Assembly: GCA_020053355.1 (NCBI GenBank)
Contig: JAGVNI010000006.1
Location: forward strand, 1-64,000
Origin: an archaeon
GTDB taxonomy: Archaea; Micrarchaeota; Micrarchaeia; Anstonellales; Bilamarchaeaceae
DNA: 64,000 nucleotides
Reading direction: 5' to 3'
Shown here: positions 49,572 through 50,424 of the stretch, piece by piece
Numbering within the stretch: position 1 is the first letter of the stretch
Layout: every line of letters begins with the position of its first letter
Position numbers and translations under genes: made by a program
Notes under the pieces: generated by a model
What the model saw: the letters and a program-made list of their open reading frames with translations, nothing else
Told to the model about the DNA's origin: nothing
Databases searched by the model: none

Positions 49572-50235
49572 TTTTCTCAATCGACATGTTCGTTGCAATC
49601 ATCGGGATGCGCTCGCGCTCGGAAATCTTGATTGCCAGGCGGTCCACCTTCGTCGGGTCGATGTTGTGGAGCACGATTGCCGAGGGCTTCGATGAGCTGA
49701 CGCGGACGACCACCAGCGGGCTTCTCCCGGTGCTGACTCCTGTGAAGATGAACACGCGCTCGTTCACATTGCCATACAGGTTCTGGAAATACGAGAACGG
49801 CATGTCGAGGATGACTTTTATGGAATCGATAAGCGTGTAGCCGTAGATTTTCTTCGAGTCCAGGAGGTCTGCATTCGTGATAATCCGCCCCTCAATCAAA
49901 TCCACGAAATCCTTCAGGGGAATCGAGCGGGCGAACTCGTGCACCTCAAAATACTCGCTGACAGGCTTCTCCTTCTCGCGGAACTTCTGGGCAATCGTCC
50001 CGCCCTTTGCTATGTCGATGTCAAAAAGCGCGTTCACGAACCTCTTGACTACGCCGGTTCCGGGCGACTTCCTCCGGTTGCCCTCGTAATCGCTTATGGT
50101 GGACACGGTGATGCCGAGATGCCGCGCCAGCTCGACTTGGGATATCCCGAAGATTTCGCGCCATTTGCGCATGGTCGCGCCTGGGTCTTCCGAGAGCGAT
50201 ATCTCGCCGGCGATCTCCATTTTGATTTTTTCCAT
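49546..50235 (-). CDS. HTH transcription regulator, COG1709-like
   Basis: About 229 aa. Residues 25-65 are an XRE-type helix-turn-helix (WREIFGISQVELARHLGITVSTISDYEGNRR), followed by a C-terminal domain with MPFSYFQNLYGNVNERVFIFTGVSTGRSPLVVVRVSS, typical of the COG1709 group of archaeal regulators. Start chosen at ATG 50235, because its TAATG overlaps the stop of a 17-codon uORF and AGGTGC is well placed; GTG 50244 is an alternative. A 22-bp repeat of its own start region and an inverted repeat sit in the leader, suggesting self-control. Confidence 0.8.
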   Translation of the reverse strand: MEKIKMEIAGEISLSEDPGATMRKWREIFGISQVELARHLGITVSTISDYEGNRRKSPGTGVVKRFVNALFDIDIAKGGTIAQKFREKEKPVSEYFEVHEFARSIPLKDFVDLIEGRIITNADLLDSKKIYGYTLIDSIKVILDMPFSYFQNLYGNVNERVFIFTGVSTGRSPLVVVRVSSSKPSAIVLHNIDPTKVDRLAIKISERERIPMIATNMSIEKIKDALNRI

Positions 50236-50288
50236 TAGCAGCACCTGAAAAATGGAGAGAATTGAACGGAGTTCAATGACATCTCCAT
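50235..50288 (-). CDS. 17-codon upstream ORF overlapping the regulator start
   Basis: ATG at 50288 opens a reading frame MEMSLNSVQFSPFFRCC that stops with TAA sharing two bases with the ATG at 50235 (TAATG). Its first codons are part of the 22-bp repeat. Ribosomes ending here could reinitiate at the regulator. Whether it is translated is not known. Confidence 0.35.
   Translation of the reverse strand: MEMSLNSVQFSPFFRCC
50261..50277. promoter_or_regulatory. Inverted repeat ATTGAAC-GGA-GTTCAAT
   Basis: Seven-bp arms with a 3-bp spacer between the two 22-bp repeats, within the leader of the COG1709-like gene. It is a plausible operator or RNA hairpin. Confidence 0.45.
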
Positions 50289-50424
50289 TTTGATTTTTTC
50301 CAAAACATCACCCGCTGTCTCATTCCCGCAGGCTGGGTATCCCTCCCAAACTTTATATTGATTTCGTCAAACGTCAATCCCTACTTCGGCAGTTATACCC
50401 CCTCTGCGAACCTGTTTTAGTCCC

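Follow-up and report, generated by a model that had tools for sequence, protein, structure and literature searches.

The leader of an HTH_3 (Cro/C1-type) regulator gene, found on the minus strand of a 64,000-nt micrarchaeal DNA stretch (contig JAGVNI010000006.1, positions 1 to 64,000, hereafter the window), is probably one copy of a lineage-specific palindromic element, which duplicates the start of the gene it enters and stays nearly silent through termination–reinitiation of translation. The regulator was encoded by a single-copy gene in its own genome (G000) and its named relatives belonged to Candidatus Micrarchaeota.

Duplicated start and inverted copy in the regulator leader

The 22-mer TGGAAAAAATCAAAATGGAGAT was present on the minus strand in two identical copies spaced by exactly 68 bp, an upstream one (X1) and one at the current gene start (X2). 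No further site was found in the window with up to three mismatches and none of 100 shuffles reached it. The frame opened by the ATG within X1 had 17 codons (MEMSLNSVQFSPFFRCC) and its TAA overlapped the ATG of the regulator (TAATG), whereas a TTG in the position of the duplicated start, with GGTGAT before it, extended the same frame to 22 codons. Between the copies, the inverted repeat ATTGAAC-GGA-GTTCAAT (7-3-7) was located, the sole match in the 1.59-Mb assembly when up to two mismatches were allowed. The start copy, the 17-codon frame and the inverted repeat had been reported in the original prediction and all three were recovered exactly. Its account did not include the gene start in inverted orientation, AAAATGGAGA on the plus strand, which is also placed between both direct copies (anti). 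The order of elements on the gene strand was SD1, X1, inner hairpin, anti, SD2, X2 and the gene (Table 1). As anti is able to pair with both X1 and X2, the leader could form one or the other of two hairpins that exclude each other: the anti:X1 pairing extends the inner hairpin into one long stem and the anti:X2 pairing closes a loop with SD2 and the ATG.

Table 1. Features of the regulator leader in the window (R2, covariance model of the element core).
Feature	Position	Strand	Basis
TGCCGAA motif	50385..50391	-	upstream of the TATA-like box in G000, G015, G012, G013, G009, G006, G001 and G010 leaders
TATA-like box AATATAAAG, upstream of copy 1	50351..50359	-	aligned with G015, whose single start is at the copy 1 position
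SD1 (GGTGAT) of the old start	50307..50312	-	sequence
X1, direct copy 1, old/ancestral position; start codon TTG 50303-50301	50281..50302	-	22/22 identity to X2
uORF, 22 codons from TTG 50303 or 17 from ATG 50288; stop TAA overlaps the regulator ATG	50235..50303	-	
Inner hairpin ATTGAAC-TCC-GTTCAAT, element core	50261..50277	-	covariation across species and across insertion sites
anti, TCTCCATTTT, reverse complement of gene codons 4-8; pairs with X1 or X2	50249..50258	-	
Whole core match to R2 (X1 end, hairpin, anti)	50249..50291	-	57.5 bits
SD2 (AGGTG) of the new start, inside the loop closed by anti:X2	50242..50246	-	sequence
X2, direct copy 2, regulator start now in use, ATG 50235-50233	50213..50234	-	22/22 identity
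HTH_3 (Cro/C1-type) regulator, 229 aa	49546..50235	-	conserved in the phylum, 265/301 genomes

About 73 leaders of the regulator gene were compared across the order. The full anatomy was detected in six genomes of the family (G000, G002, G010, G019, G020 and G022), with X1 being frameshifted in G002. In the G012 and G006 leaders, anti was present and X1 was decayed or lost. The element was absent from the leader of the sister genome G015, although the two regulator proteins were 97% identical, and the single start of G015 aligned to X1 of G000 and not to X2 (101 versus 60), which indicates that X1 is the ancestral position. Conservation of the repeat in relatives, on which the original prediction had been made to depend, was therefore partial: five family genomes besides G000 shared the whole arrangement, two kept remnants and the rest had none.

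In G019 (C45, L018), the gene-adjacent copy had ATA at the expected start codon and the upstream copy had ATG, with a GTG 9 nt upstream being a possible start. In G078 (L072), belonging to another family of the order, the same regulator was preceded by a copy of the start, the inverted form of this copy and then a distinct inverted repeat, ATTTGAC-GGA-GTCAAAT, in front of the start. This arrangement was missing from the congener G076 (L066) and may represent a related or an independent insertion.

A conserved promoter block, TGCCGAA..GAYGATAGTCGAAAT followed by the TATA-like box (window 50351-50391, minus strand), preceded the regulator in many relatives, in which the leader length within the family ranged from near leaderless to about 85 nt. 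The TGCCGAA motif seems to be a part of this promoter region, acting as an operator or promoter element, and the block could possibly be a transcriptional operator independent of the element. A transcription start downstream of the uORF, which the original prediction had named as fatal to it, appears not to be favored, as the TATA-like box conserved with G015 sits upstream of the first copy. A third start copy a further 68 bp away (50349-50370, 68% identity) coincided with the promoter region around the TATA-like box and was rejected as a coincidence.

Copies of the element in the family

A covariance model (R1) was built on the six regulator leaders and its matches at unrelated loci of these same genomes displayed the same anatomy at other gene starts. 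The second model, R2, comprised the 44-nt core and 19 sequences. Since it was built from R1 hits and calibrated briefly, its E-values are approximate and there is an over-sampling of arms similar to the model. Counted by such model searches, with models made from few related hits and the genomes being incomplete assemblies, the R2 core occurred at about 100 sites (E up to 0.3), which were distributed over 23 of the 43 genomes from this Micrarchaeota family. There were up to 14 matches per genome (E up to 1), i.e., multiple dispersed copies as expected for MITEs. Genera g8 and g10 provided one weak hit among 11 genomes. In the window, the regulator leader was the sole R2 copy, with a score that was high by construction because this sequence was among the 19 used to build the model.

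The gene starts carrying the element belonged to gatE, rtcA, rpl39e, dph2, hisH, an Mre11-like phosphoesterase, diphosphomevalonate decarboxylase, a CDC48 family protein, class II and class I tRNA synthetases (ProRS- and TyrRS-like), an NTP-transferase, an isochorismatase-domain protein, glycosyltransferases and the regulator described here; hisH, rpl39e, the glycosyltransferases and ProRS/TyrRS were assigned by our own reading of the sequences and the other families by search. Other copies were located at either end (5' or 3') of tRNA genes and, in the two g6 genomes, within a tRNA anticodon loop. Among the contexts examined, no copy was recognized in the middle of a protein gene.

The hairpin core was similar at all sites and the outer arm followed the target, the inverted arms tracking the target and not a fixed end. 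On the gene strand, the unit consisted of TCNG-YTTGAAC-loop-GTTCAAR-TC, a stretch antisense to the final 8-12 nt of the target, a spacer with a Shine–Dalgarno sequence and a second target copy including the start codon and first codons. The gene body was to the right of the new copy, with the element just inside the 5' end of the gene or at tRNA gene ends. The span from the old to the new start was about 50-95 nt and once 136 nt, and the direct repeat in fresh copies reached 26-38 nt. Together with the lack of recognized mid-gene copies, this arrangement fits an insert with a left-hand target duplication, which would persist only at sites where the second copy re-creates a start or the end of an RNA. 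Tandem units were observed at gatE (G015 and G024), rtcA (G000) and a tRNA (G001). The latter (G001:C55:1-120, L208), at the 5' end of the tRNA gene, consisted of two identical 62-nt units (30-nt target copy and 32-nt insert), being the freshest-looking copy and the best guide to the unit size.

Unusually long hairpin loops of about 50-70 nt were noticed in G020:C104 (L187) and G019:C66 (L139), and such a loop may hold cargo in a larger version of the element. Two copies, G024:C107 (L145) and G012:C74 (L216), were found beside a similar sequence, GGTGATCACTGAG..., resembling the end of a non-tRNA structured RNA gene. The tRNA genes with the element in the anticodon loop were G021:C86:27611-27736 (L197) and G031:C123:1552-1677 (L198), with the loop CTTGAGA read as Ser UGA. 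No intact copy of this tRNA was found in the G021 or G031 genomes, and the case may represent either an element-born tRNA intron or an intact gene hidden by an assembly gap. A search of eight element loci against Rfam 15 gave no matches above the gathering cut-off, and no description of such elements in Micrarchaeota or other archaea was found in open-licence papers.

Covariation in the stems and the end of the uORF

Among the regulator leaders, the sequence and the loop length of the palindrome varied and the pairing was retained. For the two alternative structures in the six orthologous leaders, 91% and 95% of cells were paired, with 7 and 9 pairs changed on both sides, respectively, and the covariation of both structures was above all 500 shuffles and far above the slid controls. 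In the element core, 16 of 17 pairs in both stems changed on both sides, with a covariation score of 0.377 versus 0.153 for shuffled and at most 0.130 for slid alignments. Where X1 and X2 differed near the junction, 16 of the 17 informative cases showed a better match of anti to X2 than to X1.

Translation from X1 was followed in 29 gene-start insertions. Insertions at the same gene are not independent, but the pattern described below extended over about 14 genes. The X1 frame stopped within -21 to +20 nt of the X2 start in 28 of them, in comparison with 11 of 58 for the other two frames. Stops inside the hairpin or anti were never encountered in the X1 frame (0/29), in contrast to 31 of 58 in the other two. 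The upstream stop overlapped or abutted the downstream start, as it does in coupled gene pairs, with ten ATGA overlaps, TAATG in G000 and TGATG in G002. In tests with H. volcanii and E. coli, 13 of 14 gene pairs having overlaps of the ATGA/TGATG type proved to be strictly coupled (PMC6728339).

Such an arrangement suggests that ribosomes would load at X1, the displaced old start turned into a uORF, and read this frame through anti. The passage through anti would open the anti:X2 hairpin hiding SD2 and the ATG, and the ribosomes would terminate on the new ATG and then reinitiate, so that the expression of the gene would be preserved. The existence of the family, its anatomy, the covariation of its pairings and the end of the uORF at the new start are read directly from the sequences, and loading at X1 with termination–reinitiation appears to be the simplest mechanism to account for them. 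The original prediction had proposed coupled or autoregulated translation. The first part is well supported by sequence comparison, the uORF stops and covarying pairings pointing to coupling as a general feature of the insertions. Autoregulation specific to this regulator is not supported, since unrelated housekeeping genes are preceded by the same structure, which also occurs at tRNA genes; it is not a device of this regulator.

Possible mobility, alternative explanations and known systems

The comparison of X1 with X2 in 24 pairs (recognized by similarity, with the frameshifted G002 left out and five pairs being only two codons long) revealed 59 synonymous and 6 non-synonymous codon differences, and 61 of 70 nucleotide differences were at third positions. 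Due to this excess of synonymous differences, X1 is not simply a dead copy drifting since the duplication. The retention of amino acids by X1, not expected of a dead duplicate unless X1 and X2 come from different alleles, counts against the reading as a start-duplicating element. The pattern is only partly explained. The favored account is that X1 is the recipient's own start, and X2 together with anti arrived through homing or recombination, with another allele or species as the source; anti would therefore fit X2, and the gatE unit would be more alike between genomes than its flanks and X1. Between G000 and G015, 64 of 67 positions of the gatE unit were identical, in comparison with 78-82% in the flanks, 54% at third positions and 16 of 21 in X1. 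Two other accounts remain, in which X1 still provides the expressed N-terminus once the insert has been removed from the RNA or bypassed, or a strong host constraint acts on the whole unit.

The gatE comparison is consistent with a unit which would move between genomes as a piece, through recombination or a homing-like process, together with its own X2 and antisense. Mobility of this kind is what we infer for the unit. The more specific idea of a minimal mobile hairpin with a private start copy and antisense for each gene, homing to the same start in relatives and silent through uORF coupling, is put forward tentatively. No transposition event, enzyme or donor was seen for the element, and neither terminal inverted repeats nor a parent transposase were recognized. 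The Y1/REP-type transposase, the sole transposase family searched, was present in 10 of the 43 family genomes with no correlation with carriage of the element. Cas1-type (CRISPR-type) integration, suggested by the 30+32 nt layout of the G001 tRNA copy, was rejected, as the Cas1 integrase occurred in three of the 43 genomes only and not in G000.

A dispersed element was weighed against cis-regulatory coupling leaders selected gene by gene, which would have arisen by repeated local duplication, been kept for regulation and be non-mobile. Selection on the pairings and uORF stops agrees with such leaders, as does the presence of the element at the same genes in several genera (the P0001 gene, gatE, rpl39e and dph2). 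However, the core sequence is common to unrelated genes and to tRNA ends, where no translation is regulated, and its presence is patchy even between sister genomes, which makes this explanation unlikely.

Slightly less likely still is that the insert is removed from RNA or bypassed by ribosomes, so that the protein would still begin with X1 and X2 would serve as a backup. This could explain the amino-acid sequence kept by X1, the ATA in the gene-adjacent copy of G019 where X1 has ATG, and the anticodon-loop tRNA seen solely with the element in G021 and G031. Nevertheless, because the ends are identical sequences, drawing by hand gave no canonical bulge-helix-bulge motif, in which a 4-bp helix lies between two 3-nt bulges at the splice sites, that would join X1 to X2 and restore the gene. 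The lack of any recognized element in the middle of a protein gene and the uORF frame open up to the X2 start, which neither splicing nor bypassing needs, also argue against it, as do the frameshift of X1 in G002 and its loss in G012 and G006.

A dedicated autoregulatory leader, in which the regulator would target its own mRNA or use the palindrome as its operator, is very improbable. Cro/C1-type regulators often bind palindromes, and this one is unique in the genome at up to two mismatches, but unrelated genes have the same anatomy and the sister species lacks it. The role of a DNA operator was rejected, as the sequence and loop length of the palindrome change while the pairing persists. Least probable of all is chance or a functionless one-off template-switch duplication: snap-back copying does produce a direct and an inverted copy along with a hairpin, but as a general account it is already contradicted by the core shared between unrelated loci, the frame test, the covariation and the failure of all 100 shuffles to reproduce the repeat.

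If the dispersed, start-duplicating element is what the data suggest, selfish or regulatory DNA can enter essential genes, such as those of ribosomal protein L39e, aminoacyl-tRNA synthetases, GatE and a Cro/C1-type regulator, and leave them unbroken. It would also give rise naturally to uORFs and coupled translation in archaea, in which both are little studied. The element further cautions that annotated start sites in these genomes are ambiguous, and the anticodon-loop case bears on the possible origin of tRNA introns.

Leader-peptide attenuators of the erm/trp type combine a uORF with stems that exclude each other, and one of these stems covers the ribosome-binding site downstream. The element shares the uORF and the alternative hairpins with one over that site, but its sequence suggests no stall motif or inducer, and the same layout precedes many unrelated genes. 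The mobile bypassing inserts of Magnusiomyces mitochondria (PMC5009743) are similar in that many short inserts in the genes of one lineage are tolerated via translation. In the present case, no mid-gene insertion was recognized and a new start restores the gene.

Like Rickettsia palindromic elements and prokaryotic MITEs (PMC10969869), the element is short, palindromic, dispersed, lineage-specific and found within genes without destroying them. It is much shorter, has an arm antisense to each target, and includes in its unit a gene-start copy with its own ribosome-binding site. The Rickettsia elements are in-frame inserts of about 150 bp translated within the protein, whereas those described here occupy gene starts and tRNA ends, with no mid-gene copy recognized and the X1 frame stopping at the new start. 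A parallel in translation is the termination–reinitiation at ATGA/TGATG overlaps (PMC6728339), where the upstream stop likewise overlaps or abuts a downstream start preceded by a Shine–Dalgarno sequence. The difference is that the upstream frame of the element is a uORF of 15-43 codons copied from the start of the downstream gene itself.
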